This document shows positions 8 to 16,142 of a stretch of 20,517 nucleotides of DNA, piece after piece. The translations under genes and the position numbers were made by a program. The notes beneath the pieces are model-generated. The model ran no database searches, was not told where the DNA came from, and saw only the letters and a program-made list of their open reading frames with translations. This stretch comes from a virus. The stretch lies in the IMG/VR virus record IMGVR_UViG_3300017788_000223, positions 1-20,517 of that record; one strand, written 5' to 3'. Each line of letters starts with the position of its first letter. Within the stretch, counting starts at the first letter, position 1.

Positions 8-715
8 ATGAAATCATTAAGAGATTATATCAACATCGTAGAAGGCACTGCACTTCTAGAAAATCCCTGGCAAGCCACAGATCCTGCTAAGGCAGCAGCA
101 TGGGCCGCATTGAGCCCCGAAGATCAAAAGTTTTTAGGCAATGCAGATCCCACAGATGCTGCCATACTAGCAAGAGCTCCAAACAAAGGCAAACCTGCCG
201 CGCCACCGGCAGCAGTACCGCCAGCCCCGGGCGCTAACGTTCCTAATCCAGGTCAGCCGGCAGCAGCAGCATCAGATACTGGTGAAGTTCCTGGAGTTAC
301 CACACAGTCAGGTGCAACTGCACAGGCAGCAGCACCAGCAGCGTCAGACACTGGTGAAGTTCCAGGAGTTACTACACAACCCGGAGCAACTGCACAGGCA
401 GCAGCACCCGCAAATAGAGATGCTATGCCATTTGGTAAAGCATTTGCTGATGCTAAATCTAAAGGTGAAAAGGAGTTCACTTGGAAAGGCAAAAAATACG
501 CCGTGGCCACAGCAGCTCCACAGGCAGCAACACCAGCACAGCCTGGTATGTGGGATAAATTCAAAAATTGGGCAACTAGTGGCGGTAAAGCGGCACAGGC
601 AGTCAGTGGCCAGCAGATCAGCGACACACCTGCGGCAGAAAGCGTGGAAACAAAAACGGATAATTTGGTTAATGAATTAGACGAAATACGTAGGATTGCA
701 GGTTTGAAGAAATAA
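8..715 (+). CDS. Low-complexity Ala/Pro-rich phage protein, probably virion-associated
   Basis: A 235-residue protein of unknown function. Residues 1-12 (MKSLRDYINIVE) and the C-terminal NELDEIRRIAGLKK resemble short end motifs I associate with virion or scaffold proteins of marine T4-like phages; this is from memory. Residues 60-135 are Ala/Pro/Thr-rich and include two nearly identical 24-residue units (88-111 and 112-135). Residues 141-166 (FGKAFADAK...FTWKGKKYAV) match a short motif pattern, F-x2-AF-x2-A-x5-G-x3-F-x-W-x-GK-x-Y, that recurs in phage proteins. No signal peptide or membrane segment is visible. The ATG lies only seven bases into the window, so its ribosome binding site and any upstream start cannot be judged. 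It is followed by an intrinsic terminator, so it ends a transcription unit separate from gp32. The gene call is firm, the role is inferred. Confidence 0.8.
   Translation: MKSLRDYINIVEGTALLENPWQATDPAKAAAWAALSPEDQKFLGNADPTDAAILARAPNKGKPAAPPAAVPPAPGANVPNPGQPAAAASDTGEVPGVTTQSGATAQAAAPAASDTGEVPGVTTQPGATAQAAAPANRDAMPFGKAFADAKSKGEKEFTWKGKKYAVATAAPQAATPAQPGMWDKFKNWATSGGKAAQAVSGQQISDTPAAESVETKTDNLVNELDEIRRIAGLKK
269..412 (+). repeat. Two tandem 72-bp in-frame repeats
   Basis: Two adjacent 72-base units, 269-340 and 341-412, each encode 24 residues of the form ASDTGEVPGVTTQ(S/P)GATAQAAAPA. The protein copies differ at one residue (Ser or Pro after TTQ), while several third codon positions differ (for example gatact versus gacact, and cctgga versus ccagga). 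The duplication is therefore not brand new and has been held at the protein level. It extends the Ala/Pro/Thr linker of the first gene. Confidence 0.9.
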
Positions 716-2950: not shown

Positions 2951-3179
2951 CAACCAAATCAGCGACGTTTGGCTATTTTTCAAAGAGTTCATCGACAAGA
3001 AAGAACTAGAAGTTGCCGCAGAACAGTATGTTGATCTGCTAGCAGATTTTGGCATCAAGGACAAAGTTCTCGAAGGAGCTAGAGGTGCAGATGCAGAATT
3101 AGATGCTGCCATCGAATACTATCTAGAAGATGATGTCACCGAAGAAGTTGAAGACGACTACGAAGACGACGAATACTGA
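2943..3179 (+). CDS. Small acidic protein between uvsX and uvsY
   Basis: A 78-residue protein of unknown function. The N-terminal half (SDVWLFFKEFIDKKELEVAA) looks like an amphipathic helical domain. The last 20 residues are almost entirely Asp, Glu, Val and Tyr (EDDVTEEVEDDYEDDEY), a strongly acidic tail of the kind seen in single-strand-binding proteins and DNA mimics. GAGGAG at 2927-2932 lies 10 bases before the ATG. The start overlaps the uvsX stop by 8 bases, and its own stop shares one base (TGATG, 3177-3181) with the next start. It is therefore expressed together with UvsX and the UvsY-like protein, and may act with them or with gp32; this is inference from position and charge. Confidence 0.8.
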   Translation: MTDNQISDVWLFFKEFIDKKELEVAAEQYVDLLADFGIKDKVLEGARGADAELDAAIEYYLEDDVTEEVEDDYEDDEY

Positions 3180-3631
3180 TGTGGTATAACAAGATCAGCA
3201 AAGATATTTCCTACATTCCCGATGCCGTGGAATATTACAACGCCGAATTGCAGGCTGCAAAAACAGAATGCCGTATAACGGGTAATATTGAAAAGGCCGC
3301 AGCCAATATGCCTGGCATCGTGGAACAGAGATTCAATCAATTGCAGGAAATCGAAGCTATCTTAGAATACTTAAACATCGAACTTCGTCGACTACGTAGT
3401 CAGCATTTTAGAAAATATTTAGAAAATTATCAGCGATCATTAAGCAGTAGGGACTGTGAAAAGTATGTAGAGGGTGAAGCCGATGTTGTGGACTTTGAAA
3501 AGATCATCAACGAATTTGCCCTACTACGCAACAAATGGTTGGGCATTACCAAAGCATTGGATGTTAAACAGTGGCAGTTAAGTAATGTCATCAAACTGCG
3601 CACAGCCGGCATGGAGGACGCCAGTCTTTAA
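3179..3631 (+). CDS. uvsY: UvsY-like recombination mediator
   Basis: A 150-residue, mostly helical, charged protein close to the length of T4 UvsY (137 residues). UvsY helps load UvsX onto gp32-coated single strands. Matching features are the N-terminal acidic and aromatic region, a central basic helix (IELRRLRSQHFRKYL, about 67-81), the short acidic segment before VDFEKIINE, and a C-terminal part reading KWLGITKALDVKQWQLSNVIKLRTAGMEDA, shown here only by key positions: K-W-L at about 119-121, Q-W-Q-L at about 131-134 and K-L-R at about 139-141. UvsY proteins of marine T4-like phages end with a similar W-x-I/L-x-N-x4-R pattern. Position after uvsX supports the call. No clear Shine-Dalgarno is seen; translation probably restarts from the overlapping stop. 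Confidence 0.72.
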   Translation: MWYNKISKDISYIPDAVEYYNAELQAAKTECRITGNIEKAAANMPGIVEQRFNQLQEIEAILEYLNIELRRLRSQHFRKYLENYQRSLSSRDCEKYVEGEADVVDFEKIINEFALLRNKWLGITKALDVKQWQLSNVIKLRTAGMEDASL

Positions 3632-3651: not shown

Positions 3652-3659
3652 TATAAATA
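3652..3659 (+). promoter_or_regulatory. T4-type late promoter TATAAATA
   Basis: An exact copy of the T4 late promoter octamer, in the 27-base gap between the UvsY-like gene and the glycan cassette. In T4 this element is read by the gp55 sigma factor and transcription starts about six bases after it, here at about 3665, which is the A of an ATG. The message would be leaderless. The sequence is AT-rich, so chance occurrence is possible, but it is one of only two exact matches I found and lies at an operon start. Confidence 0.6.
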
Positions 3660-3664
3660 TGATT

Positions 3665-4426
3665 ATGAAAATAGTCATAGTTACAGGTGGTTTTGACCCC
3701 ATCCATTCTGGTCATATCTCATATTTTAATGCAGCCAAAAAACTAGGCGATGTTTTAGTTGTTGGGTTAAATTCTGACGACTGGCTACGTCGCAAAAAAG
3801 GCCGAGAATTTATGCCATGGCATGAACGTGCAGAGATAGTACGTAATCTCAAAATGGTAGACTTTGTTATCAGTTTTGATGACAGTGATGGCACTGCTAT
3901 AGATGCTATTAAAAAAGTTGTTGAAAAAGAACCAGAATCTTTTATTATCTTTGCCAACGGTGGCGATCGTACTCCAGAAAATATTCCTGAAATGGCTGTT
4001 ACTGACGAACGTGTTAGTTTTGCCTTTGGAATAGGTGGAGAAGATAAAAAGAATTCTAGTAGTTGGATACTAGAAGAATGGCGTAAACCTAAAACTGAAC
4101 GTCCTTGGGGCTATTACAAAGTACTTCATGAAGTGGGCAAAGAAGTAAAATTAAAAGAACTAACTGTTGATCCTAGACAAAGTCTTAGTATGCAACGTCA
4201 TAGAAGTCGTGCAGAATTTTGGTTTGTCAGTGAGGGCGAAGCCACTGTTTACACACTAAATCGTAAGACCGATGCTGAGCTAGTAGGTAAATTTACGCAG
4301 TTTGATCATACATGGATAGCAAACAATGAGTGGCACCAACTGTGTAATGAAACTGACAAACCCCTACGCATCATTGAGATTCAGTATGGTGATAATTGTG
4401 TTGAAGAGGATATAGAAAGAAAATGA
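3665..4426 (+). CDS. Cytidylyltransferase-like nucleotidyltransferase fused to ManC-type cupin
   Basis: A two-domain protein of 253 residues. The N-terminal part is a cytidylyltransferase-like (HIGH-superfamily) nucleotidyltransferase: MKIVIVTGGFDPIHSGH with the HxGH motif at 14-17, and SSSWILEEWRK (about 131-141) in the place of the ISSTxI motif. Relatives such as TagD and RfaE/HldE activate polyol or heptose phosphates with CTP or ATP. The C-terminal part is a cupin like the mannose-6-phosphate isomerase domain of ManC: ERPWGYY (145-151) and SMQRHRSRAEFWFV (about 175-188) are diagnostic. Together they suggest making or modifying a nucleotide-activated sugar. An ATG at 3659 would add two residues, but it overlaps the late promoter octamer and lacks a ribosome binding site; the N-terminus from 3665 fits the family better. 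The stop overlaps the next start by ATGA. Confidence 0.85.
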   Translation: MKIVIVTGGFDPIHSGHISYFNAAKKLGDVLVVGLNSDDWLRRKKGREFMPWHERAEIVRNLKMVDFVISFDDSDGTAIDAIKKVVEKEPESFIIFANGGDRTPENIPEMAVTDERVSFAFGIGGEDKKNSSSWILEEWRKPKTERPWGYYKVLHEVGKEVKLKELTVDPRQSLSMQRHRSRAEFWFVSEGEATVYTLNRKTDAELVGKFTQFDHTWIANNEWHQLCNETDKPLRIIEIQYGDNCVEEDIERK

Positions 4427-5103
4427 TTCCGATTTTTATAGGCTATGATCCAAGAGAAGCAATAGCATTTCATGTTTGTCATAACAGTATCATTAGACAT
4501 AGTAGTCAGCCTGTATCAGTAAGTGCGTTGGCATTGAACATACTCAAAGGCTACGAAGAAAAACATACTGATGGCAGTAATCATTTTATCTACAGCAGAT
4601 TCCTTGTACCACACTTAATGAACTACAAGGGATGGGCTCTGTTTATTGATGGTGATATGATTCTTAGAGATGATATAAACAAATTATGGGATCTAAGAGA
4701 TGATTCAAAAGCAGTAATGGTGGTCAAACATGATTATAAGACTAAAATGACAGAAAAATATCTTGGATCAAAAAATGAAAATTATCCAAGAAAAAATTGG
4801 AGCAGTGTAATATTATGGAACTGTGCTCATCCTGCTAATGCTGTTGTGACTCCAGAATTTATACAAAATGCCACAGGTGCTCAGGTCCATAGATTTAGTT
4901 GGTTATCAGATGAGCTAGTTGGCGAGTTACCTAAAGAATGGAATTGGTTAGATATAGAATATGATCATAATCCTGAAGCAAAGTTAATACACTATACACT
5001 CGGTTCCCCATGCTTTCATGAATTTGCAGATCAGGGCGACTTTTGTGACGAATGGCATCGTGAAAGAATCTATACAGAATACTGTCAACAAAGGACTCTA
5101 TGA
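4423..5103 (+). CDS. GT8-like glycosyltransferase
   Basis: A 226-residue GT-A-fold transferase resembling family 8. It starts IPIFIGYDPREAIAFHVCH, a common opening of the bacterial and phage members. FIYSRFLVPHL (55-65) is followed by ALFIDGDMIL with the DxD metal and nucleotide-sugar site at 76-78. A late HYTLGSP segment with the following FH fits the C-terminal His that binds metal in GT8. It would transfer a sugar from a nucleotide donor; donor and acceptor cannot be read from the sequence. It is linked by ATGA overlaps to the genes on both sides. There is no membrane segment, so it should act in the cytoplasm. Confidence 0.82.
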   Translation: MIPIFIGYDPREAIAFHVCHNSIIRHSSQPVSVSALALNILKGYEEKHTDGSNHFIYSRFLVPHLMNYKGWALFIDGDMILRDDINKLWDLRDDSKAVMVVKHDYKTKMTEKYLGSKNENYPRKNWSSVILWNCAHPANAVVTPEFIQNATGAQVHRFSWLSDELVGELPKEWNWLDIEYDHNPEAKLIHYTLGSPCFHEFADQGDFCDEWHRERIYTEYCQQRTL

Positions 5104-5987
5104 AAGCGGCAGCAGTTTCTGGTACAGTCAAAAATTTTGGTCCAGTATCTAGAGGACTAAGTTGTCATGGCATAGAAACAAATCTTTTTTACACAGTCGA
5201 AGAAGCATTGGATTGGGGCTGTGATTTTTTTGTACAGACAAATATCTATAACCAGTTTAAATCTGACAAAGAATTATATAAAAAAATTAAAACAACTGGA
5301 AAACCTATATTAGTAATCGAAAGTCCTGTGTTTAGATTTATCGATGATGAAATATATAAATGGTACAGACTAAGTTGGAATGATTATCTATTTCCAGAAG
5401 CCATATATCCTATCGATGATAGCAATGAGCGGTGGGAATGGATAAAACAAGAATATAATTTAAAAATTAATGAGTGGCAGCACAGTGGTACTAGTATTGC
5501 TATTGCTTTACAAAAATTCAGTGACAGTAGTTTAAATTCTTTATACAGCGAAGAAATTGAAAAACCATTTCCAAGATACATTGAATGGTTGGATTCTGTA
5601 ATTGATAGTATAAAAGATTTAGGTTTTAGAAAAATCATTTTAAGACCCCACCCATTAAATAATCCCACACAAAATAGAAAACTCTCTGAAAAATATATTA
5701 AACATACTATAAGTCGCGACAACAACTTTGTCAAAGACTACAAATGTGTAGTAACGTTTAATAGTCTTTATGCTATTGACTGCTTATATAACGGCATATC
5801 TGTGATAAGTTTATCTGATTCTAGCCTACAAAATCAATTTGCAAAATACCAATTACAGGATATAATTAATCCTCCCACTCCTTCTAACAGAGAAGATATT
5901 TTTTCAAAATTAAGCTATTGTCAATGGCGTGAAGATGAAGTTAGACAAGGTGTTCCTTTTGAAAAACTTTTAAAAATATTTCAATGA
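5100..5987 (+). CDS. Putative KpsS/KpsC-like glycosyltransferase, cassette paralogue 1
   Basis: A 295-residue member of a family present six times in this window. The C-terminal half looks like a GT-B glycosyltransferase related to capsule synthesis proteins (KpsS/KpsC type, Capsule_synth): IILRPHPLNNP with RPHP at 182-185, then CVVTFNSLYAIDCLYNGISVI (216-236, key residues N221, S222 and G232) as a sugar-nucleotide binding loop, and a closing SYCQWREDEVRQG segment. The N-terminal half carries LVIESPVFRF (71-80), similar to IVLEVGGLIR in the 12572 paralogue. In capsule enzymes such motifs transfer Kdo or related sugars. Assignment rests on motif reading. The gene is visibly AT-richer than gp32 or uvsX and is coupled at both ends by ATGA. 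Confidence 0.68.
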   Translation: MKAAAVSGTVKNFGPVSRGLSCHGIETNLFYTVEEALDWGCDFFVQTNIYNQFKSDKELYKKIKTTGKPILVIESPVFRFIDDEIYKWYRLSWNDYLFPEAIYPIDDSNERWEWIKQEYNLKINEWQHSGTSIAIALQKFSDSSLNSLYSEEIEKPFPRYIEWLDSVIDSIKDLGFRKIILRPHPLNNPTQNRKLSEKYIKHTISRDNNFVKDYKCVVTFNSLYAIDCLYNGISVISLSDSSLQNQFAKYQLQDIINPPTPSNREDIFSKLSYCQWREDEVRQGVPFEKLLKIFQ

Positions 5988-6808
5988 ATAAGATTTATAT
6001 TACAACAATGAATCAAGAATATTTTGATTCTTTAGGTTTTAAAACTTTACAATCATGGTTAAAAAATTGTAAACAAGGTAATATTATTCTTTATGCAGAA
6101 AACTTTTTACCCATATGGGATAAACCTCATCAAATTATTAATTGGGATGATTCCTATTATAATAGACTAATTGTTAAAAAAATTAATTTAGATGAACAAT
6201 GGAAAAGTTTATATTATACTTTGACTGGCAGAGCAAAAAATTTTATTTGGAAGGCTGCGTCGTGGACCGAAGCATGTAAAGAGTTTAAAGGCATTGTGAC
6301 TTTTTTCGACGCTGATCTAATTTGTTTCAGTGATCCAGAAAAAATTATAAATCAATTTATAGATAACAACTACGATGCAAGTATTTTATCAGTTAAAGAT
6401 ATAAAACCACATGCTGATTCTTGTTTTTACAGTATCAATACATTAAAAAATAATAATATTATAGACGAATATACGAATCAATATTTTAAAAAAATTTTCG
6501 ATAATACAATATACCCCAAGCCGTATGATGCTCCAGTTTATGCCAAAACTTTGAATATTTTAAAAGATCAAATTAAAATTTGGGATTTTAATTCTGGTTC
6601 GGATGCAAAATCACCATTAAAAGATACTGTACTTAATAATTATTTTAGACATCTAAAAGCAAATCAAAAAGACAGTGGCAGACTGCTAGGTTTGATAGAT
6701 AAAACAATAAATGCTATTGATAAAGATAAAACCATAGAAGATGTTTTATTAAGATTCGATAGAAAATTAAGACAAGATGACAGTAAAAAAACAGGAGTAC
6801 CTTTTTAA
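5984..6808 (+). CDS. GT-A-type glycosyltransferase-like protein, copy A
   Basis: A 274-residue protein with a probable DxD site in IVTFFDADLICFSD (DAD at 109-111), preceded by a helix with K-A-A-S-W-T-E-A (about 90-97). HADSCFYSIN and, near the end, a YFRHLKANQKDSGRLLG segment are matched in the minus-strand gene at 11682-12524 by SECGFYSLNL and YLDHLKGDRKTSGKSY, so the two are paralogues. These features suggest a nucleotide-sugar-dependent transferase, with the acceptor unknown. A lysine- and aspartate-rich tail (about 240-270) has no match in the paralogue. The coding sequence is strongly A/T-rich. The start overlaps the previous stop by ATGA. Confidence 0.65.
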   Translation: MNKIYITTMNQEYFDSLGFKTLQSWLKNCKQGNIILYAENFLPIWDKPHQIINWDDSYYNRLIVKKINLDEQWKSLYYTLTGRAKNFIWKAASWTEACKEFKGIVTFFDADLICFSDPEKIINQFIDNNYDASILSVKDIKPHADSCFYSINTLKNNNIIDEYTNQYFKKIFDNTIYPKPYDAPVYAKTLNILKDQIKIWDFNSGSDAKSPLKDTVLNNYFRHLKANQKDSGRLLGLIDKTINAIDKDKTIEDVLLRFDRKLRQDDSKKTGVPF

Positions 6809-7627
6809 ATGATTAAGTGGAGGACTCAAAATGACTCGTATCTTTTACAGATGTTAAATGCTGGTGTAAAGGATAATCGAATAGAATTGGCTATAATTTC
6901 TGATCTTAAAAAAGATGACAGTACAGACCCTATGTTTTTAAGGGGCATTGCAGGAAAAATTTTAAGATATAGGTATAAACACAATTTGCCATACTGGTAC
7001 ATGGATACTGGATATTGGGGTAACTACAGAGATGTGAACAATTTTAAAGGTTTTAAAATTTGGCACAGAATTGTTAAAAATGGATTACAACACAATAGTA
7101 TTATAAAAAGGCCTGCTGATCGCTGGGAATATCACAAATATAAAATACCTAAACGAAAAAAAGAAGGCAGTGATATATTATTAATACCAGCAAGTGCAAA
7201 GTCTGCTAAATTTTATGGTATAGACAATGACGTGTGGGTTCAACAAACTATTGAAAAATTAAAACAATATACTGATAGGCCTATAAGAGTTAGAAATAAA
7301 ATAGGAAGAACACAACGTATAATAGAAAATACAATATTTGATGATTTAGATTCAGCATATTGTGCCATAACATATAATAGTATTGCCGCCAGCGAAAGTG
7401 TGTTATATGGAGTTCCAGTTATAACTTTAGCACCTAATGCCGCCGATCCTGTCAGCGAAAAACAAATAGAAAAAGTTGAAAATCCGTATTTTCCAGACAA
7501 AGATTTGATCTTTGATTGGGCATGTCATCTAGCATATGGACAAGTTTCTAGTTTTGAATTTGAAAACGGCCATGCCTATAGGCTTCTTTTAGAACATTGG
7601 AATTTTAATGTACCTTTTATTAAGTAA
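6809..7627 (+). CDS. Putative KpsS-like glycosyltransferase, cassette paralogue 2 (RPHP absent)
   Basis: A 272-residue member of the six-copy family, in the subgroup with an extra N-terminal signature: PYWYMDTGYWGN (61-72) followed by WHRIVKNGLQHNS (85-97) and RPADRW (101-106). The C-terminal module keeps KQYTDRPIRVR (152-162), TYNSIAASESVLYGVPVI (188-205) and the closing AYGQVSSFE, but the RPHP of paralogue 1 is replaced by RNKI. Either the catalytic chemistry differs or this copy is not an active transferase. Its start abuts the previous stop, and AGGAG at 6793-6797 lies 11 bases upstream. It overlaps the next gene by 20 bases. Confidence 0.65.
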   Translation: MIKWRTQNDSYLLQMLNAGVKDNRIELAIISDLKKDDSTDPMFLRGIAGKILRYRYKHNLPYWYMDTGYWGNYRDVNNFKGFKIWHRIVKNGLQHNSIIKRPADRWEYHKYKIPKRKKEGSDILLIPASAKSAKFYGIDNDVWVQQTIEKLKQYTDRPIRVRNKIGRTQRIIENTIFDDLDSAYCAITYNSIAASESVLYGVPVITLAPNAADPVSEKQIEKVENPYFPDKDLIFDWACHLAYGQVSSFEFENGHAYRLLLEHWNFNVPFIK

Positions 7628-8690
7628 TAAAGAAATAATCGATTTTTTAATTGAAAAAATTGACTACGCAAAGAAATTTGCAAACGTTCCTATATCATGG
7701 ACAGAGACTGAAGAATATATATCTTCTATAGATGAAAAGTATCTTGTAGGAGAAAAATTCATACCAAAGTTTAAACAAAGAGTAGCTGCCCTAGTTGAAA
7801 GCGATCTTTTTAATCACATAAAACTTATTGAAGAATTAATTAAAAAAGAAAAGAAAAAAAATTTTAATTTAATAAACAACAACATTGATTATTTTGTCGA
7901 CACTTTAGGCAAAGATAAAATTTTAGATTTTTATCTGAAAGATAAAAAGAAAAACTTTGTAAAAAGCACAGGATTGCATATAGATTCACAGGCGCAATTA
8001 ATAAGACGAAGTGATTATTCAGATAACACTAAAAATTGCTTGTTTAGAAACATGGACGGAAACGAAGAAATGTTGCTAGACAAAATGAGTAGAAATTTAC
8101 CTTTTTGGTTTATAGATACTGGGTACACAAATTTTTTAAATGGTAAGAACAAAATCTGGCATAGATTAGTAAAAAATAATCTACACCACAGCACATATTT
8201 TGAAGCGCCAGTTGATAGACTTGGTATATTTGAATCTTTTCCTTTACCATGGAGAAATGGCGGTGATAAGATATTAATTATAGAACCAGGCGAGTTTAGT
8301 GCCAAAACTTTTGCTATTGATATAGCATCTTGGAAGAAAAATATCATTTCTGAATTAAAAAAATATACAGATAAAAAAATAGTAATTAGAGAAAAATTAA
8401 GCAAAACAGTTAGAACAAATTTATATAACGAACTTTGTGATGATGATTACTATTGTGTAATAAACATTAATTCAAACGCCGCAGTAGAATCTATATGGGC
8501 AGGAATACCAGTAATAACACTAGGAAAACACATATCTAATTCAGTTAGTAGGAGTAAAATTTCTGATGTGAACAATTTATATAAACCTCATTTAGCACAA
8601 TGGTTATGTATGTTAAGCTACAGTCAATTTACCTATGAGGAACTAATAAACGGTATTGCAGTGAATATCGTAAAGCAACATCATGTCTAA
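7608..8690 (+). CDS. Putative KpsS-like glycosyltransferase, cassette paralogue 3 with long N-terminal extension
   Basis: At 360 residues this is the longest member of the family. Residues from about 160 match paralogue 2: NLPFWFIDTGY (163-173), IWHRLVKNNLHHS (183-195), APVDR (200-204), KKYTDKKIVIRE (251-262), INSNAAVESIWAGIPVI (287-303) and SYSQFTYEEL near the end. RPHP is replaced by REKL. The first 140 or so residues have no match in the other copies; residues 60-90 are rich in Lys, Glu, Ile and Leu and could form a coiled coil. The ATG overlaps the previous gene by 20 bases; no other Met occurs before residue 149, so this start is the best available, though a non-ATG start cannot be excluded. 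It is among the most A/T-rich genes here. Confidence 0.65.
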   Translation: MYLLLSNKEIIDFLIEKIDYAKKFANVPISWTETEEYISSIDEKYLVGEKFIPKFKQRVAALVESDLFNHIKLIEELIKKEKKKNFNLINNNIDYFVDTLGKDKILDFYLKDKKKNFVKSTGLHIDSQAQLIRRSDYSDNTKNCLFRNMDGNEEMLLDKMSRNLPFWFIDTGYTNFLNGKNKIWHRLVKNNLHHSTYFEAPVDRLGIFESFPLPWRNGGDKILIIEPGEFSAKTFAIDIASWKKNIISELKKYTDKKIVIREKLSKTVRTNLYNELCDDDYYCVININSNAAVESIWAGIPVITLGKHISNSVSRSKISDVNNLYKPHLAQWLCMLSYSQFTYEELINGIAVNIVKQHHV

Positions 8691-9606
8691 ATTAACAGCA
8701 GTCGCATATTATAGTGGTATTCCACCTAATAATAAAAATCCTGAAAAACCTTTGATTCTAGACTATTTTTGTCAGGGTGTAAATGCCTGCGGCGATACTG
8801 CAACTGCACATAGAGGATTTAATCCTATAAACTGTGATGTGGCTCTTATTCAAGGATTTGTTCATGAAGATGGTAAAAACATGCCACACTTGAATTTAAG
8901 AAAACAAGCACTGATATTGCAAAAAAATACAGGTAAAAAATCATTAATAGTAGACAGTAATTTATTTTTATTTGCAGATCCAGGAAATTCTCAACACTAT
9001 TTAAGATATAGTTTTGATGGAGTTTTTCCAACTACTGGATTTTATTTTGATAGAGATATTGACCCAACTCGTTGGCAAAAAATCAGCAAAAATTTAAACA
9101 TAAGTTTGCAACCATATAGAAATTCCGGAGATCATATTTTAATTTGTTTACAGAGAAACGGCGGCTGGAGTATGAAAGGGTTAAATTCGTTAGTATGGCT
9201 AAATGATACTGTTACTAAGATTAAACAATACAGTGATAGAAAAATAATTGTTAGAGCACACCCAGGAGATAAAAAAACACAAGGCTTTATCAAATTGCAT
9301 CATAAAAATGTGCTGTTAAGTCAAAAAGAAAAACTAACAGATGATTTAATTAATGCTTGGGCCACTGTGGTATACAATAGTAGCCCCAGTGTTGCAAGTT
9401 TAATTATGGGAGTTCCAGCATTTTTAACTGATCCTGTGCCACAAAATAGTCAAAGTTTTGGGGCTGCAAATTTAGATATAAGTAAAATTGAAAACCCTGA
9501 ATTCTTTGATCGGCAGTCATGGATAGAAAAAATTAGTATGTGTCACTGGAACTTTGAAGAACTTAGATCAGGTGAATCTTGGACATTTTTTAAGAGATAT
9601 GTATGA
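8683..9606 (+). CDS. Putative KpsS/KpsC-like glycosyltransferase, cassette paralogue 4
   Basis: A 307-residue member of the subgroup that keeps the His-Pro motif: KQYSDRKIIVRAHPGDKKT, with RAHP at 191-194. It continues with VVYNSSPSVASLIMGVPAF (key residues N, S, S and G-V-P), ISKIENPEFFDRQSWIEKI and a closing CHWNFEELRSG. The N-terminal half contains a CDVALIQGFV stretch and a SLIVDSNLFLF strand (87-97), like the 5100 and 12572 copies, in place of the DTGY/WHR signature of copies 2, 3 and 5. It is likely a cytoplasmic GT-B transferase for a surface-type glycan, inferred from motifs. It overlaps the previous gene by 8 bases and the next by ATGA. Confidence 0.68.
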   Translation: MSKLTAVAYYSGIPPNNKNPEKPLILDYFCQGVNACGDTATAHRGFNPINCDVALIQGFVHEDGKNMPHLNLRKQALILQKNTGKKSLIVDSNLFLFADPGNSQHYLRYSFDGVFPTTGFYFDRDIDPTRWQKISKNLNISLQPYRNSGDHILICLQRNGGWSMKGLNSLVWLNDTVTKIKQYSDRKIIVRAHPGDKKTQGFIKLHHKNVLLSQKEKLTDDLINAWATVVYNSSPSVASLIMGVPAFLTDPVPQNSQSFGAANLDISKIENPEFFDRQSWIEKISMCHWNFEELRSGESWTFFKRYV

Positions 9607-10325
9607 TAAAATTAGATAACGGTTGGCATGTACCAGAAGGCGATATAAAAATGACTACTCATGTGTCATTAGACGAATCAGTAGATCAGCCAACTTATGA
9701 ACAGCGACATAGAGATAGTATATTAAAGTTTATTCCAAATAAAGAAACATTTGTTGATGTTGGAGCAAATTTAGGCATATGGTCCATAGCAATGTCTCCG
9801 TTTTTTAAACGCATAATATCTTTTGAACCAAGCCCTAGAAATAGAGAATGTTTAGAACAAAATTTAAAAGACCGAGCAGAAATACGTCCGTATGCTGTTA
9901 GTAATACTAATGGCGTTGCTTATTTTTCTGATGCTGTAAAAAATTGTGGAGATTCAAAACTAGTTAGTTCTAACTCACCAATGAAAAGAAAACAATATGA
10001 AGTAAATGTAGTTACTTTAGATAATCAGAACATTACTGACTGTTCTTTAATTAAAATTGATGTACAGGGTCATGAACTACCAGTTGTATTAGGTGCTGAA
10101 AAAATAATCACAGAACAGCAGCCTTGGGTAATATTTGAAATCAATGAGGACATTGACGAAATTTGTAAGTTTTTTGAAAATAAAAACTATGATATGATCA
10201 TTAACAAATCAAAAAGAGTTTTTATTTTTGCACCTAAAGAAGGAAAAAATAAACCTTTAGATGAATCTGCTTTTGGCCGATGGTTTGGGCATGGTCCTTA
10301 TAAAAAATTACTAAAAGTTAGATAA
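9603..10325 (+). CDS. FkbM-family SAM-dependent methyltransferase
   Basis: A 240-residue class I methyltransferase. Motif I is FVDVGANLGIWSI (50-62), typical of FkbM, followed by the acidic strand end IISFEPSP (71-78). The FkbM signature LIKIDVQGHELPVVLGAE spans 149-166 (key residues D153, G156, H157 and E158). FkbM proteins mostly O-methylate sugars or other small molecules; with glycosyltransferases on both sides, methylation of a sugar residue is the likely role. The last 25 residues (NKPLDESAFGRWFGHGPYKK) form a Gly/Trp tail beyond the core. It is the last plus-strand gene of the left operon and ends two bases from the convergent minus-strand gene, with no terminator visible between them. 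Confidence 0.88.
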   Translation: MIKLDNGWHVPEGDIKMTTHVSLDESVDQPTYEQRHRDSILKFIPNKETFVDVGANLGIWSIAMSPFFKRIISFEPSPRNRECLEQNLKDRAEIRPYAVSNTNGVAYFSDAVKNCGDSKLVSSNSPMKRKQYEVNVVTLDNQNITDCSLIKIDVQGHELPVVLGAEKIITEQQPWVIFEINEDIDEICKFFENKNYDMIINKSKRVFIFAPKEGKNKPLDESAFGRWFGHGPYKKLLKVR

Positions 10326-10327
10326 AA

Positions 10328-11098
10328 TTAATTAAGGTCGAAATACATACCAGATGATAATTCTTCTCTGGTAAATTGACTATAAGATAAGTGATAAATC
10401 CAACGCATTTTAATATCGTTATCAACTACTGACAATTCCTCTATTTTTGAAATATCACTGTTGTATATGCTACACGTTGCTGATTCCCCTACACTTATAA
10501 CAGGTATGCCATACATTGCCGATTCTACTAGTGCATTAGAGGAATGTCCAATAACACAATATGTATTTTTAGAAATAAAGTTTAAAAATGTATCACTAAC
10601 AACTCTTTCTCCTCTAGATGCAGGACGTTGTCTAATTCGTATAGGCCTATCTGAATATTTTTTTATTTCGTAAATAATTGATGTTAGCCAGTCATTTACA
10701 CTGGGTGCTAAATTTTCAATATGAAGTTTTTTTTCATCAGGTAGAACAATAACAATATCATCACCCCTAGTTAAATTAGTCAACTTGATATTAAAGGAAT
10801 TCCATCTATCTGAAGGCCGGTCTATGACATCTGTTATGTTTTGATAAGAGTTTTTTGATACTCTAAAATAAGTTTTTAATTTATTGTTTGAAAAATAGGC
10901 ACTATCTAAATTATAAAAATCTAAGTTATGTTTTTTACAATGTGTATGTAAGGTTTTCTTATATCTCCCAGCCCAACACATAGGTAAAGACGTATTACTC
11001 ATTGCCTCTTCAACAGATACAATTTTGCCATTACCTCCCAGAGTAAAGGCATTAACACCGTACTTCTCACCCCCAAAAGACAAAAAATTTATTGTCAT
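10328..11098 (-). CDS. Putative KpsS-like glycosyltransferase, cassette paralogue 5
   Basis: A 256-residue family member on the minus strand. It belongs with copies 2 and 3: FYNLDSAYFSN (61-71) aligns with YWYMDTGYWGN, and RPSDRW (94-99) with RPADRW. It keeps KKYSDRPIRIRQRP (146-159), GHSSNALVESAMYGIPVI (184-201) and SYSQFTREELSSG near the end. RPHP appears as RQRP, with the Pro kept and the His lost. It opens with MTINFLSFGGEKYGVNAF and lacks the long extension of copy 3. Its start overlaps the stop of the upstream minus-strand gene by ATGA (11095-11098), so it is the last gene of a three-gene operon. Confidence 0.66.
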   Translation of the reverse strand: MTINFLSFGGEKYGVNAFTLGGNGKIVSVEEAMSNTSLPMCWAGRYKKTLHTHCKKHNLDFYNLDSAYFSNNKLKTYFRVSKNSYQNITDVIDRPSDRWNSFNIKLTNLTRGDDIVIVLPDEKKLHIENLAPSVNDWLTSIIYEIKKYSDRPIRIRQRPASRGERVVSDTFLNFISKNTYCVIGHSSNALVESAMYGIPVISVGESATCSIYNSDISKIEELSVVDNDIKMRWIYHLSYSQFTREELSSGMYFDLN

Positions 11099-11685
11099 TT
11101 TAATAAAGCAATTTGATTGTGTCTAGCACCCTGCCATTTTAATAGAGCAAGTTGTTTTCTTTTTGGTCGTTCTGGCATGGTCATTTCTATGATTTCATGA
11201 CTAGCAGATAAATTAGATGTAATTTCATCTATTGCCTGCTTAACACCTTCAATTTGATAATCATCAAACACAATTACTGTGCTTTCTTTTACCATAAAAT
11301 AATCATGCATTACAGTTTCGTAGCTATGCCCACCATCAATATATACAAAATCATATGCTACTGGGCTAGTTAAGGTGTCTTTTGTGTAACCTTTGATAAG
11401 TTCATAACTAAATCTTTTCCCGTATTTTTCTTTTCTTTTTGTCAAAGCCTTGTCAGCTAATTTAAAATTACCGGGCCCTTTGCCATTATGTTCTTGTGCA
11501 TCGGTATTTTTATCTGCTAAATCAAATAGATCATAACCTGTATAGTGTAATCTATGAACTTTTGGGAATAGATAATCTATAAATTGTATGGCACTGCTAC
11601 CATTGTGTGTTCCTATCTCGCAGATATTCTGTGGTAAGTATAGATCAAAAATTTTAAAAAAATTTTGAAGTAAATTAATTTTCAT
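11095..11685 (-). CDS. Class I SAM methyltransferase-like protein (Methyltransf_24 type)
   Basis: A 196-residue protein with ICEIGTHNGSSAIQF (21-35) as motif I and YDFVYIDGGHSYETVMHDY (111-129, key residues D117, G118, G119 and H120), the hallmark of the Methyltransf_24 and cephalosporin-hydroxylase-like groups. VIVFDDYQIEGVKQAID follows. Relatives methylate sugars and other small molecules in glycan and natural-product gene clusters. The C-terminus has a short repeat, with QLALLKWQGARHN followed by QIALLK. It overlaps both neighbours by ATGA, and is therefore co-translated with a glycosyltransferase on each side. Methylation of a glycan intermediate is the likely job, by context. Confidence 0.8.
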   Translation of the reverse strand: MKINLLQNFFKIFDLYLPQNICEIGTHNGSSAIQFIDYLFPKVHRLHYTGYDLFDLADKNTDAQEHNGKGPGNFKLADKALTKRKEKYGKRFSYELIKGYTKDTLTSPVAYDFVYIDGGHSYETVMHDYFMVKESTVIVFDDYQIEGVKQAIDEITSNLSASHEIIEMTMPERPKRKQLALLKWQGARHNQIALLK

Positions 11686-12524
11686 CTTATGCCTGCCCAG
11701 TATAATTCTTTTCTATGTACAGCTAAATCCACTCTGTAACTTTTTCCTGACGTTTTTCTATCACCTTTTAAGTGATCTAAGTAAGCACCCAAATCTGTAT
11801 TGATTAATGGATGTCCTTCACCGGGACTATTTTTTGGATTAGGCCTAATATCTACAAGATGTTGACTCCAGTTATGTGTTTTAAGCCCTTCTTTTTCTAA
11901 ACGTTCTCTAACAATATCAAAAACATAGCTGTCATGCCATTCTTTTAAGGTAAAAATGCCATTTTCTGCATCATCCCACATTTTTTGAAAATCTTCTAAA
12001 AATTTTCTTACCATTGGATCACGTAAATTCAAAGAATAAAACCCACATTCACTATATTTGTTGTGTCTACCTAAATAACAAATGCCCGTGTCCTCAGGAA
12101 CAAAATTATCTAAAAAATTTCTTGGCATATTGCTGTGACATATAATATCGGCGTCCATCCATATCAAAATATCTGCATCTGTCTGTTTTGCGGCTGCAAA
12201 TATTGAATAAACCTTATGACTGAAACGAACTGCGTCCCATTTAAACGGTTTTTTAGCATCTTTACGATTAGGATCAGGACCCTGGCCATTAGCACGTGGA
12301 TCATTTTTATATTTTTCTTTAAATGTTACGATTTCAGGACTTTGTTGGTGTAAATCATAAACATGAATTTTATTTTTATGATTTTCATGTACGTACGGCG
12401 TACAATTTTCTGTAAAAACCATTAATTCCATAGGAATATTTTTTATAAACGTATCTATAAAATTTTGTCCGTATTGTTGTAGGCCTTTTTGATGAAATGT
12501 AGTAACAGCAACAAATTTTCTCAA
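11682..12524 (-). CDS. GT-A-type glycosyltransferase-like protein, copy B
   Basis: A 280-residue paralogue of the gene at 5984-6808. ILIWMDADIICHSN carries the DxD site (DAD at 124-126), preceded by FKWDAVRFSHKVYSI (94-108), where Lys and Phe side chains match copy A's FIWKAASW segment. GFYSLNLRDP and YLDHLKGDRKTSGKSY complete the match. It likely transfers a sugar from a nucleotide donor in the cytoplasm. The start is a TTG at 12524-12522: a perfect AAGGAG lies 6 bases upstream and the first internal Met is residue 32. It is the first gene of the minus-strand operon, behind a possible late promoter. Confidence 0.72.
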   Translation of the reverse strand: MRKFVAVTTFHQKGLQQYGQNFIDTFIKNIPMELMVFTENCTPYVHENHKNKIHVYDLHQQSPEIVTFKEKYKNDPRANGQGPDPNRKDAKKPFKWDAVRFSHKVYSIFAAAKQTDADILIWMDADIICHSNMPRNFLDNFVPEDTGICYLGRHNKYSECGFYSLNLRDPMVRKFLEDFQKMWDDAENGIFTLKEWHDSYVFDIVRERLEKEGLKTHNWSQHLVDIRPNPKNSPGEGHPLINTDLGAYLDHLKGDRKTSGKSYRVDLAVHRKELYWAGIR

Positions 12525-12530
12525 AACTAA

Positions 12531-12536
12531 CTCCTT
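12531..12536 (-). promoter_or_regulatory. Ribosome binding site that fixes a TTG start
   Basis: On the minus strand these bases read AAGGAG, six bases before the TTG at 12524. No in-frame ATG occurs for 31 codons, so this site decides the start of the 280-residue glycosyltransferase. Confidence 0.8.
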
Positions 12537-12555
12537 AAATCGTTAAATATACTAC

Positions 12556-12563
12556 TATTTATG
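12556..12563 (-). promoter_or_regulatory. Near-consensus late promoter CATAAATA
   Basis: On the minus strand 12563-12556 reads CATAAATA, one mismatch from the T4 late octamer. A start about six bases downstream (near 12550) gives a leader of about 25 bases containing the AAGGAG site. It sits in the 47-base gap between two divergent genes, the only place where the minus-strand operon could be driven without reading through a gene. Confidence 0.5.
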
Positions 12564-12571
12564 GATGACTT

Positions 12572-13459
12572 ATGATCTTTGGTTTATTTAAAGACTTCGG
12601 TGCATTAAATTCGGGCTCAGTGTTTGCGGCTTTTGAACAAGGTGTGCAAAAATTGGGCCATACGGCTGTTGGTGGTCATATGGACATGCCAGATGTTGCC
12701 GTAATATGGAGCGTATTGTGGAATGGTAAGATGTCCAAGAACAAAGAAGTCATGGATCATTTTATCAAGCAGGGAAAAAAGGTAATTGTATTAGAAGTTG
12801 GCGGATTAATTAGAAATCAAACATGGAAAGTGGGAATAGGTGGCATAAATGGTGAAGCATATTTTGGCCATGAGACTGAAAATATCAGTGATCGTTTAAG
12901 AAGTATGAAAATTAAGATACAACCTTGGAGATTAAAAAGTTATCAACCAAGATATATTTTAATTTGCGGTCAAAATGATCGAAGTCACCAATGGCGTGAC
13001 ATGCCGCCCATGCAAGAGTGGGTGACTAAGACAATCAGTGAAATTCGTCAGTATACTGATCGAGATATTCGCGTTAGGCCACATCCACGCAGTCCACTAG
13101 ATATGAAATGGACACAACAAACTATCAACGATTTTAATGATGTGTATTTTAATCAGCCAAGACACATAGCAGGTAGCTATGATGACTATGATTTTGAAAA
13201 ACAATTAAGCGATGCATGGTGTGTTATTAATTGGAGCAGTAATCCAGCTACTCAAGCAGTGTTAAATGGCATTCCAATTTTCACAGGACCAGAAAGTTTG
13301 GCCGCTCCTGTGGCAAATTTGCGACTAGCTCGCATAGAAGACCCCGATATGCCAGACAGGCAGCAGTGGGCCAACAATATTGCTTACACTGAATGGACTA
13401 TTGACGAAATTGCCCAAGGTTTACCACTAGCAAGATTAATAGATAAACTAAAAACTTGA
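12572..13459 (+). CDS. Putative KpsS/KpsC-like glycosyltransferase, cassette paralogue 6
   Basis: A 295-residue member with the best-kept capsule-enzyme motifs: RQYTDRDIRVRPHPRSP with RPHP at 169-172, INWSSNPATQAVLNGIPIF (219-237), and AYTEWTIDEIAQG near the end. An LARIEDPDMPDRQQWANNI segment matches paralogue 4. The N-terminal half has the strand VIVLEVGGLIR (71-81), and resembles paralogues 1 and 4. It is likely the most typical active enzyme of the six, by motif integrity. It is transcribed away from the minus-strand operon. The start has only a weak site (TGGATGA); an ATG at 12561 runs into a stop after four codons, so 12572 is chosen. Its stop overlaps the -35 box of the next promoter. 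Confidence 0.7.
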   Translation: MIFGLFKDFGALNSGSVFAAFEQGVQKLGHTAVGGHMDMPDVAVIWSVLWNGKMSKNKEVMDHFIKQGKKVIVLEVGGLIRNQTWKVGIGGINGEAYFGHETENISDRLRSMKIKIQPWRLKSYQPRYILICGQNDRSHQWRDMPPMQEWVTKTISEIRQYTDRDIRVRPHPRSPLDMKWTQQTINDFNDVYFNQPRHIAGSYDDYDFEKQLSDAWCVINWSSNPATQAVLNGIPIFTGPESLAAPVANLRLARIEDPDMPDRQQWANNIAYTEWTIDEIAQGLPLARLIDKLKT

Positions 13460-13489: not shown

Positions 13490-14686
13490 ATGATGACTGT
13501 TGACGATATTATCTTTAAAATAGAAAATTATGGCTTTGCTAATCTGAGCCCCTCTATATCTAAAAAAGACCGAGATATTTTGGCAAATATAGCCAAGTTG
13601 TTAAAAACTTCAAATTATATTACCAGTAATCAAGGTAACTTGTCCATAAAAATTCTAAAAGAAAATTTAGAACATTTGAACTTTGTAGGCGCTGATTTAA
13701 TTAGTGTTGTTAAATTGCCGTTATGGTCAAGAAATTTCAAAAATCCTGAAAAAATCAGGAAAATTTATCTAAAAACCACAAATTTTAATCAGCCAACAAT
13801 CACTATCAAAGCCACTTACACAAAGGATTTGAAAAAAGCAATTATTGAATTACAAAAAAATTCAGAAGGCCCACTTCACTCAGTAGTCGGTAGTGAATAT
13901 CATATTTCTTTGACTGAAAAAAATCTAATCAGGACCATAGATACACTAAAAAAGTATAATTTTGAGAAATCTACTGAAATTTCTGATTTTTATCAAAAAA
14001 TTAAAAACATAAATTTAGATGAAGTTGAAAAACAATTTGACATTGAGCAATCAATTGACGAAAATTTAAAAAAACAGTTAGTAGCTGATATTGGTTCAGC
14101 AAACAGCAGAGACCCTCTGTTCTTAACTGATAGAAAAATCAAGTTTCAATACACCTATAACAAAAAAATACAGGGTATTGACGAAAATAGTCTGCTATAC
14201 AAAATTTCAACAAGAAAAAATAGTCAAATTTTTGTAAATTCAGAAAACTTTACCACATCAGAGTTAGCATCGACTTTAAGAAGATTAAACAGGTTGCCAG
14301 TACTGATAATTTTAGATGAGTATAACCCAAAAGCCAGCTTAGAAAACCTAAAAATTATCAAAAAAACTATGGATTCATTGAATTTTCGTGGTAACACTGG
14401 TGTTTATTTTAGATTTGATAATACTGGTGAAGGCGCCGAGTTTAATAAACTTGTTGCCGAGTATGGTTACAACAAAAAGTTAGATAGTGATAATAAACTA
14501 ACTATCTTAAGCAATGGAAAAATACCTAAATTTTTGTTAAAAACCAATTGGTACCCAAAATCTGTAATCAGTTTTACAAATAATTTAAGAAATAATAAAA
14601 CCAGCGTGTATTGCAATGAATGTGATTTGATTGTATACTATACACCAACAAAACCAGTAATTGGAAATGTAGATGCCATCGTGTAA
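13490..14686 (+). CDS. Unknown protein upstream of and overlapping uvsW
   Basis: A 398-residue protein that I do not recognise. It is rich in Lys, Asn, Ile and Leu. The middle has an Asn/Glu/Asp/Lys-rich helical part (about 160-195) and a RDPLFLTDRKIKFQYTY segment. Then comes ENFTTSELASTLRRLNRLP followed by VLIILDEYNP (key residues D and E), which resembles a buried strand ending in acidic residues, as in Walker B or DExx-like motifs, but no Walker A (GxxGxGK) is present. The C-terminus has VYCNECDLIVYYTP with a C-x2-C pair. There is no signal peptide or membrane segment. The gene has its own sigma70-type promoter, no Shine-Dalgarno, and overlaps uvsW by 14 bases, so it probably works with or regulates UvsW. 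Confidence 0.82.
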   Translation: MMTVDDIIFKIENYGFANLSPSISKKDRDILANIAKLLKTSNYITSNQGNLSIKILKENLEHLNFVGADLISVVKLPLWSRNFKNPEKIRKIYLKTTNFNQPTITIKATYTKDLKKAIIELQKNSEGPLHSVVGSEYHISLTEKNLIRTIDTLKKYNFEKSTEISDFYQKIKNINLDEVEKQFDIEQSIDENLKKQLVADIGSANSRDPLFLTDRKIKFQYTYNKKIQGIDENSLLYKISTRKNSQIFVNSENFTTSELASTLRRLNRLPVLIILDEYNPKASLENLKIIKKTMDSLNFRGNTGVYFRFDNTGEGAEFNKLVAEYGYNKKLDSDNKLTILSNGKIPKFLLKTNWYPKSVISFTNNLRNNKTSVYCNECDLIVYYTPTKPVIGNVDAIV

Positions 14687-16142
14687 GTTAGTGATAAAAG
14701 ATGAAGTAAACATAAAATTAGAAGGATTGCCCGTAGAAGCAAGGCGCAAACTTGCCAATGCATTCAAATACGAAATTCCATATGCACGTTACCATCCTGC
14801 ATATAAGTTAGGTCGCTGGGATGGTCACAATAGTCTATTTGGTATTGGTGGTAATGGATATTTGAACCAATTAGAAAAGATTATTGAGATACTTGCTTCA
14901 ATGAATATTGAAATTGGTGAAGTAGAAGATCTAAGACAGCCTGTAAATTTTAAATTTACCGCAGTAACGGAAACATATTGGGCAGACAGAGGCAAAGTTT
15001 GGCCTAAGGGTCATGTAGAAGAAGGCAAACCCATTGTGCTACGTGACTATCAAGTCGAAGCTATAAACAAATTTTTAGAAAATCCACAGAGCCTACAAGA
15101 GATTGCCACAGGGGCGGGCAAAACTATCACTACAGCAACATTGGCTAATATCTGTGAAAAATATGGAAGGACTATCGTTATAGTTCCCAATAAAAGTCTA
15201 GTAGAACAGACTGAAGAAGATTTTGTTAACGTGGGTCTCGATGTTGGCGTTTACTACGGTGATAGAAAAGATCTAAACAAAACACACACTATTTGCACGT
15301 GGCAGAGTCTTAACATATTAGATAAAAAAAGTAAAAATGTTGAACATGACATATTAACTTTGGCTGAATTTTTAGATGGCGTTAAGACTGTGATTGTTGA
15401 CGAAGTGCATATGGCCAAGGCCGAAGTGTTAAAAAATTTGCTAACAAAAAATCTCAGCAATGCCTGCATACGTTGGGGATTGACTGGCACTGTACCTAAA
15501 GAAGACTACGAGAGTCAAAGCATTTTTGCCAGTATTGGGCCTGTGATCGGTGGCATTAAGGCACACGAATTACAGGAAAAGGGTGTGTTAAGTAATTGCC
15601 ATGTAAATGTCGTACAACTCATCGACTTGCCTGAATTCAAACAGTATGCAGATGAATTGAAGTATTTGGTCACCAACGAAGATCGTATGCTATATATCAG
15701 CAACTTAATTAGGGAAGTATCTAAGAGCGGTAACACATTAGTATTAGTTAACAGAATCGATAGTGGCAAATTTCTCGTCAATGAACTAACAGACAGTGTG
15801 TTTATTTCCGGCGAAGTAAAGACCAAAGACCGTAAGGAAGAATATGATGAAGTCAAGACTAGTGATAACAAAATTATCGTGGCTACTTACGGGGTTGCCG
15901 CGGTGGGTATTAATATTCCCCGTATTTTTAATCTGGTACTGTTGGAACCCGGTAAGAGCTTTGTCCGTGTTATCCAAAGTATCGGGCGCGGAATACGTAA
16001 AGCTGAAGACAAAGATTTTGTCCAAATCTGGGACATAACCAGCACTTGCAAATATGCCAAGAGGCATTTGACAGAACGAAAGAAATATTATAAGGAGGCC
16101 AAGTATCCGTTCACACTTGAGAAAGTGGATTGGCAAAAATAG
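14673..16142 (+). CDS. uvsW: UvsW, superfamily 2 DNA/RNA helicase
   Basis: A 489-residue homologue of T4 UvsW (about 500 residues), which unwinds R-loops and branched DNA and promotes branch migration, helping the change from origin-dependent to recombination-dependent replication. The N-terminal domain (1-90) has the YHPAYKLGRWDG (40-51) stretch. Helicase motifs follow in order: RDYQ (124-127), Walker A ATGAGKT (145-151), DEVH box (243-246), TGT (271-273), VATYGVAAVGINIP (403-416), and motif VI QSIGRGIRK (435-443). All key residues are intact. The ATG overlaps the previous stop by 14 bases. In T4, uvsW lies close to uvsY; here the cassette and the unknown gene separate them. Confidence 0.95.
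   Translation: MPSCKLVIKDEVNIKLEGLPVEARRKLANAFKYEIPYARYHPAYKLGRWDGHNSLFGIGGNGYLNQLEKIIEILASMNIEIGEVEDLRQPVNFKFTAVTETYWADRGKVWPKGHVEEGKPIVLRDYQVEAINKFLENPQSLQEIATGAGKTITTATLANICEKYGRTIVIVPNKSLVEQTEEDFVNVGLDVGVYYGDRKDLNKTHTICTWQSLNILDKKSKNVEHDILTLAEFLDGVKTVIVDEVHMAKAEVLKNLLTKNLSNACIRWGLTGTVPKEDYESQSIFASIGPVIGGIKAHELQEKGVLSNCHVNVVQLIDLPEFKQYADELKYLVTNEDRMLYISNLIREVSKSGNTLVLVNRIDSGKFLVNELTDSVFISGEVKTKDRKEEYDEVKTSDNKIIVATYGVAAVGINIPRIFNLVLLEPGKSFVRVIQSIGRGIRKAEDKDFVQIWDITSTCKYAKRHLTERKKYYKEAKYPFTLEKVDWQK

Follow-up and report, generated by a model that had tools for sequence, protein, structure and literature searches.

The window analysed here is the complete IMG/VR record IMGVR_UViG_3300017788_000223, a linear fragment of 20,517 bases from an incomplete contig, and our subject is a cassette of six paralogous genes within it that are predicted to encode KpsC-like GT-B glycosyltransferases. 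The source is a T4-like aquatic phage: the window carries T4-like recombination genes for a single-strand DNA binding protein, UvsX, UvsY and a UvsW-type helicase, whose closest counterparts, at approximately 52-56% identity, come from large T4-like phages of Rhizobiales, Pseudomonas and Vibrio. The cassette is bounded on the left by uvsY (3179..3631, plus strand; phrog_231, 8e-17) and on the right by the uvsW-type helicase gene (14673..16142, plus strand; phrog_16, 8e-81). We refer to the paralogues as A (5100..5987), D (8683..9606) and F (12572..13459), all on the plus strand, and as the BCE group, which comprises B (6809..7627, plus), C (7608..8690, plus) and E (10328..11098, minus).

A first-pass annotation, made from the sequence alone, had proposed these six open reading frames as paralogues; all are present and their homology is confirmed. 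The F protein as a single tblastn query recovers the other five in the record (E 2e-18 to 2e-8), all 15 pairwise alignments beat each of 200 shuffles (z 7.3 to 49.8), the profiles of the groups align mutually at probabilities of 99.9-100, and C matches B in blastp at 3e-42. The proposed common C-terminal layout is visible in the sequences. A midpoint-rooted tree was built from 286 homologues, taken from viral contigs and three phage records, and in it the two proposed groups fall into separate superclades, one containing F, A and D and the other B, C and E. As had been claimed, the second group has lost its His (replaced by Lys, Lys and Arg in B, C and E, respectively), and its DTGY/WHR signature holds for the group but is looser in the E copy (DSAY/YFR). 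The C copy has an additional N-terminal region of about 140 residues (window 7608-8030) that matches nothing; L009:6514-7605 and L047:3915-5069, which belong to the same clade, are similarly long.

Judged from the tree, the paralogues are old orthologous lines, since each clusters with the corresponding genes of other contigs rather than with its neighbours. A recent diversity-generating expansion, which the annotation had considered, is not supported by these old and mostly single-copy lines, and ordinary recent tandem duplication without distinct roles, to which the side-by-side placement of the genes might point, can hardly be credited given that the tree contradicts it and that D is single-copy in 80 loci. 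Nor are several adjacent copies as rare as had been supposed: three is the commonest number per locus (55 of 87 loci) and four loci hold six or seven, although the window with its six does stand at the high end.

No family in Pfam lies above cut-off for any of the six proteins, and no PHROGs or NCBIfam model above cut-off covers any of them; PHROGs and NCBIfam gave only a partial NeuC match to E (3e-4 over 38 residues), far below cut-off. Structures were predicted with AlphaFold2 for one member per group, F (mean pLDDT, the predicted local distance difference test score, 95.5) and B (mean pLDDT 88.2). In Foldseek and VIA-align comparisons of the F model with the PDB, the retaining 3-deoxy-D-manno-oct-2-ulosonic acid (Kdo) transferases KpsC, WbbB and KrkA, of the kind by which bacteria attach this acidic sugar to capsules and lipopolysaccharide, rank highest, KpsC with a Z score of 15.0 and 3.9 A over 235 residues, and the next GT-B-like entries outside the Kdo transferases reach approximately 10.7. 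The same three lead for the B model (KpsC Z 11.3, 4.4 A over 214 residues), followed by entries at 9.2 that cover one domain only. Both models thus have the KpsC/WbbB-type GT-B fold, and neither differing folds nor a better match outside the glycosyltransferases was found for these representatives of the two groups. Aspartate transcarbamoylase matches in Foldseek were discarded as poor (template modelling score about 0.24), and a family-profile sequence search of solved structures returned designed TIM barrels, along with a few weak matches to unrelated chains, all of which we judged to be chance.

Profile comparison with HHalign against KpsC and KpsS sequences drawn from bacterial genomes points the same way, and together with the structure matches it supports the KpsC/KpsS-type GT-B family guessed in the annotation. 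Against cellular KpsC alone the probabilities are 92.5 for A, 78.9 for F, 4.3 for D and 7.0 for BCE; against KpsC and KpsS together they are 97.2, 95.6, 94.8 and 90.6, respectively. The alignment of A with KpsC pairs ESEPFR with EDGFLRS, QKEGDSS with QTRGDAS, and RPHP with KVHP. Thirteen unrelated families from the same contigs served as controls and stayed at or below 0.5; a further control, a GT8 cluster, reached 80 through fused BCE members and is not counted as a failed control. In a tree with a KpsC/KpsS outgroup the phage family forms a single clade with full support. We regard it as a large viral protein family without prior annotation, and as a new, phage-centred branch of the KpsC-like GT-B superfamily.

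The solved enzymes provide a residue-level frame for comparing the copies. In these retaining Kdo transferases the Asp of a QxxxD motif forms the covalent Kdo adduct, (K/R)xHP contacts cytosine and phosphate, a Glu is the general base, and a Ser and a second Glu lie on the phosphate and the ribose, respectively (PMC9587256, PMC10148158, PMC12887879); the general-base position varies among the known families (PMC12887879). By its sequence, the A copy retains all catalytic features of this class, namely the presumed Glu base (E74), QxxxD (Q138-xxx-D142) and RxHP (R182-P-H184-P185), together with S222 and D227. Within group A, 23/23 members carry the presumed base Glu, the Gln and the Asp, 24/24 carry the His, and the local pattern QxxGDSSL resembles QTRGDASI of cellular KpsC.

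The remaining lines depart from this arrangement in different ways, with base positions placed by alignment to the ExGF of KpsC (Glu in A and F, Asp in D and BCE) and with Ser138 of F and Gly161 of D placed at the nucleophile site by alignment. F (E75, Q134-xxx-S138, R169-P-H171-P172) has the base Glu in 85/86 clade members, invariant Gln and HP, and Ser at the Asp position in 84/86. D (D91, Q157-xxx-G161, R191-x-H193-P194) has Asp at the base position, Gln and His in 80/80 each, an invariant HP, and Gly at the Asp position in 78/80. In the BCE clade the base position is Asp in 93/96, both Gln and Asp of QxxxD are lost, and 95/96 members have Lys or Arg in place of His; 91/96 retain the ribose Glu, which F and D have lost. 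B illustrates this state, with D66-T-G-Y, no QxxxD, K164-I in place of HP, and S191 and E196 retained, and E has Arg at the His position. Thus (K/R)xHP is present in A (RPHP), D (RAHP) and F (RPHP) and absent from B, C and E, and QxxxD with its Asp nucleophile is found in A only, so that the other five copies are relatives by fold and not members by chemistry.

The annotation had raised the possibility that some copies have become non-catalytic. The residue losses do indicate that some are probably not canonical catalysts, but the decisive loss is that of the QxxxD Asp, which is missing in five of the six copies, among them the two that keep the His. This nucleophile motif, which had been overlooked, is the most informative difference between the copies. 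An acidic residue near the Gln was considered as a substitute nucleophile and rejected as a general replacement, being absent in 17/86 F and 35/80 D members. An environmental podovirus protein of the F clade retains ETGY, QVPQDAS and RPHP, and given that the phage family is one clade relative to the KpsC/KpsS outgroup, the sequences are most simply explained by a complete ancestral active site that was lost in separate lines; the order of the losses is uncertain, given moderate support at the internal nodes and a long branch to the outgroup.

The contigs compared were gathered by likeness to F, and the frequency of F itself is therefore uninformative, whereas the co-occurrence of D, BCE, GT8 and GT-A genes is informative. 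In T4-like viral contigs a core order recurs between uvsY and uvsW: nucleotidyltransferase-cupin, GT8, BCE, D, GT-A and F. D is 5' of F in all 80 contigs that carry both; BCE is immediately 5' of D in 67 of these, and the ends of the two usually overlap; 78 have a GT-A-like gene inside the D-F interval; and upstream of D there is a GT8 gene in 74 and a nucleotidyltransferase-cupin gene in 61. All 33 contigs that span both uvsY and uvsW carry the cassette between these markers, and in a second set (e.g., L033, L066, L086) uvsY and uvsX are downstream of F on the opposite strand. GT8 and BCE form one protein in 19 contigs, and A is present in 19/80 loci.

In the window the core begins with an HldE/RfaE-type nucleotidyltransferase fused to a mannose-6-phosphate isomerase-type cupin (3659..4426, plus; identified by Pfam, homologue in 63 loci), which matches the heptose enzyme domain rfaE_dom_II at 4e-23, below cut-off, and continues with a GT8-family glycosyltransferase (4423..5103, plus; PF01501, 9e-8). 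A GT-A-like core gene precedes F (11682..12524, minus; Glycos_transf_2 at 2e-4, just below cut-off). Interspersed are a weak GT-A-like candidate (5984..6808, plus; Glycos_transf_2 at 0.0023, below cut-off), an FkbM-type methyltransferase (9603..10325, plus; PF05050, 1.8e-18) and a methyltransferase-like gene (11095..11685, minus; phrog_2675, 1.9e-9). A 398-amino-acid protein encoded at 13490-14686, with no PHROGs or NCBIfam family, occurs in 55 loci, usually between F and uvsW. Elsewhere, a GDP-mannose 4,6-dehydratase-like protein adjoins the cassette at L062:9627-10631 and belongs to a cluster found in 20 loci; some lineages may thus make their own sugar nucleotide. In the uvsW neighbourhood of Agrobacterium phage Atu_ph07 no gene is annotated as a glycosyltransferase. 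Outside the cassette, window positions 8-715 encode a low-complexity protein with direct repeats whose unit resembles AASDTGEVPGVTTQ.

We favour, with a probability of about 0.68, the reading that the KpsC-like GT-B enzymes of the cassette form a phage-encoded assembly line for a glycan, in which one copy is a predicted canonical transferase of the CMP (cytidine monophosphate)-Kdo type and the others have altered chemistry or accessory roles. An assembly line rather than redundancy is suggested because both the gene order and the separate active sites are conserved, and a pathway of successive steps, one of the options raised in the first-pass annotation, fits a conserved core in which three distinct paralogues are ordered next to GT8 and GT-A genes. 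BCE, D and F would be three old lines acting with GT8, GT-A and the nucleotidyltransferase-cupin as a fixed core, with additional copies and the methyltransferases decorating the product. Gram-negative hosts produce CMP-Kdo, which makes Kdo the first candidate donor for A; this copy would most likely be a retaining transferase that draws on a host CMP-sugar, forms a covalent intermediate at Asp142 and passes on Kdo or another CMP-activated ulosonic acid like it. D and F probably still bind a CMP-sugar with the Asp route closed, and since they keep RxHP, Gln and Ser but have lost the nucleophile, direct displacement or a role as non-covalent partner is likely. The BCE copies would most likely bind the acceptor or use a changed donor beside GT8. 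An inner-core-like glycan would fit the rfaE_dom_II-like nucleotidyltransferase, although this is speculation.

Several observations weigh against this reading. The fold assignment of A, C, D and E is by homology to the two modelled copies, the profile link of D and BCE to KpsC alone is weak, Pfam Capsule_synth (PF05159) has no match in the record at E 10, and the window has no recognised CMP-Kdo synthetase; moreover, 69/86 F members have an acid at Gln+2 or +3, where a shifted nucleophile is possible.

The rival explanations overlap with the favoured one and differ mainly in the role of the nucleophile-less copies. All copies could be active, with D, F and BCE having left Kdo chemistry for other nucleotide sugars via inverting or SNi (internal nucleophilic substitution) mechanisms, so that only the fold was inherited. 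The altered positions are conserved as in working sites, D and F are without the ribose-binding Glu, and a heptose-type nucleotidyltransferase belongs to the core; yet neither the RxHP that recognises cytosine nor the Gln that binds the carboxylate varies in D and F, an argument that these two lines use a CMP-ulosonic acid as donor, and we consider this explanation possible but less probable. A further reading is that phages evolved, within a lineage of double-displacement retaining transferases, the conserved QxxxS and QxxxG lines, which would still bind CMP-ulosonic acids, pass them on by an inverting or some other mechanism, and act in sequence with the canonical copy to make a phage-specified Kdo- and heptose-like glycan; it appears doubtful. 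D, F and BCE could also be pseudoenzymes, serving as scaffolds or regulators for GT8, GT-A and, where it occurs, A. The lack of the nucleophile in all three core lines, the position of BCE directly beside or fused to GT8, and the limited occurrence of A are in keeping with this; that D and F have strictly conserved the base, the Gln and the HP while diverging for long is not, and the explanation seems to us unlikely.

As to the target of the assembly line, a host surface polysaccharide is most plausible by analogy with pelagimyophages, for whose similar gene sets host O-chain modification is proposed, without experiment (PMC7029224). Modification of the virion or other phage proteins would agree with the Caulobacter phages, in which two homologues and an FkbM gene come after tail genes; set against this are the pelagimyophage proposal and the placement of the cassette amid recombination genes in the relatives of the window, and a virion target is somewhat unlikely.

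The cassette interior, above all BCE, changes fastest: when the window is compared with L009, its nearest relative, identity falls from 98% for UvsY and 95% for F to 75% for D, 70% for A, 56% for C and 45% for B. The E copy has 38% identity to its nearest counterpart, and E and its nearest orthologue (L009:1808-2578) occupy different positions and strands in these two closely related cassettes, hinting at single-gene mobility. At least 532 loci in IMG/VR viral contigs match the profile pattern, 16 of 50,697 phage records match F, and 11 loci were found in the 84,980 prokaryote genomes of GTDB; given that the three scans used different search patterns, these counts are not directly comparable. 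Several of the GTDB loci have uvs genes next to the cassette and so appear to be phage contigs that were binned with bacteria; L096, L097, L100 and L101, on bacterial metagenome-assembled genome contigs that carry the cassette with uvsW or uvsY, are probably such misbinned viral contigs. In a BFVD structure search, several proteins of Tetraselmis virus 1, a giant algal virus, share the fold, and two are named capsule polysaccharide biosynthesis protein.

The family is thereby given a predicted fold, a fixed genomic setting and predictions at the level of single residues. Its paralogues offer a natural series in which a covalent-intermediate glycosyltransferase loses its nucleophile yet stays under selection, as well as a testable enzyme set for glycan alteration by aquatic T4-like phages.

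Among known systems, the KpsC modules (GT107) and KpsS, the Kdo transferases of group 2 capsules, come closest: they share the GT-B variant fold, the motifs QxxxD, (K/R)xHP and S..E and, as assigned by alignment, the ExGF-type base position, and provide the best structural match of the F and B models. The phage proteins differ in escaping Pfam Capsule_synth, in having a complete QxxxD in A only, and in being shorter (256-360 amino acids) with one module each. The retaining Kdo transferases WbbB (GT99) and KrkA (GT140) are alike in fold by structure search and in their C-terminal catalytic motifs; no sequence match of the phage proteins to either was found, and the acceptor regions are not comparable. 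The pseudaminic acid transferase KpsS1 (GT118) is, by its description, a related retaining ulosonic acid transferase (PMC12887879). The lipopolysaccharide gene islands of pelagimyophages and cyanophages likewise bring GT8, rfaE-type and other glycosyltransferase genes into T4-like aquatic phages, and the KpsC-like family and the uvsY-uvsW core are not described in the part of that account considered here (PMC7029224). Members of the family annotated as hypothetical are present in the Caulobacter Bertelyvirus CcrSC (gp170/gp171) and in Pelagibacter phage Mosig (00185/00187), with two copies each as opposed to six in the window; the CcrSC homologues adjoin tail genes and those of Mosig lie downstream of nucleotide-metabolism genes, and in both phages, as in the window, FkbM or glycosyltransferase genes are nearby.

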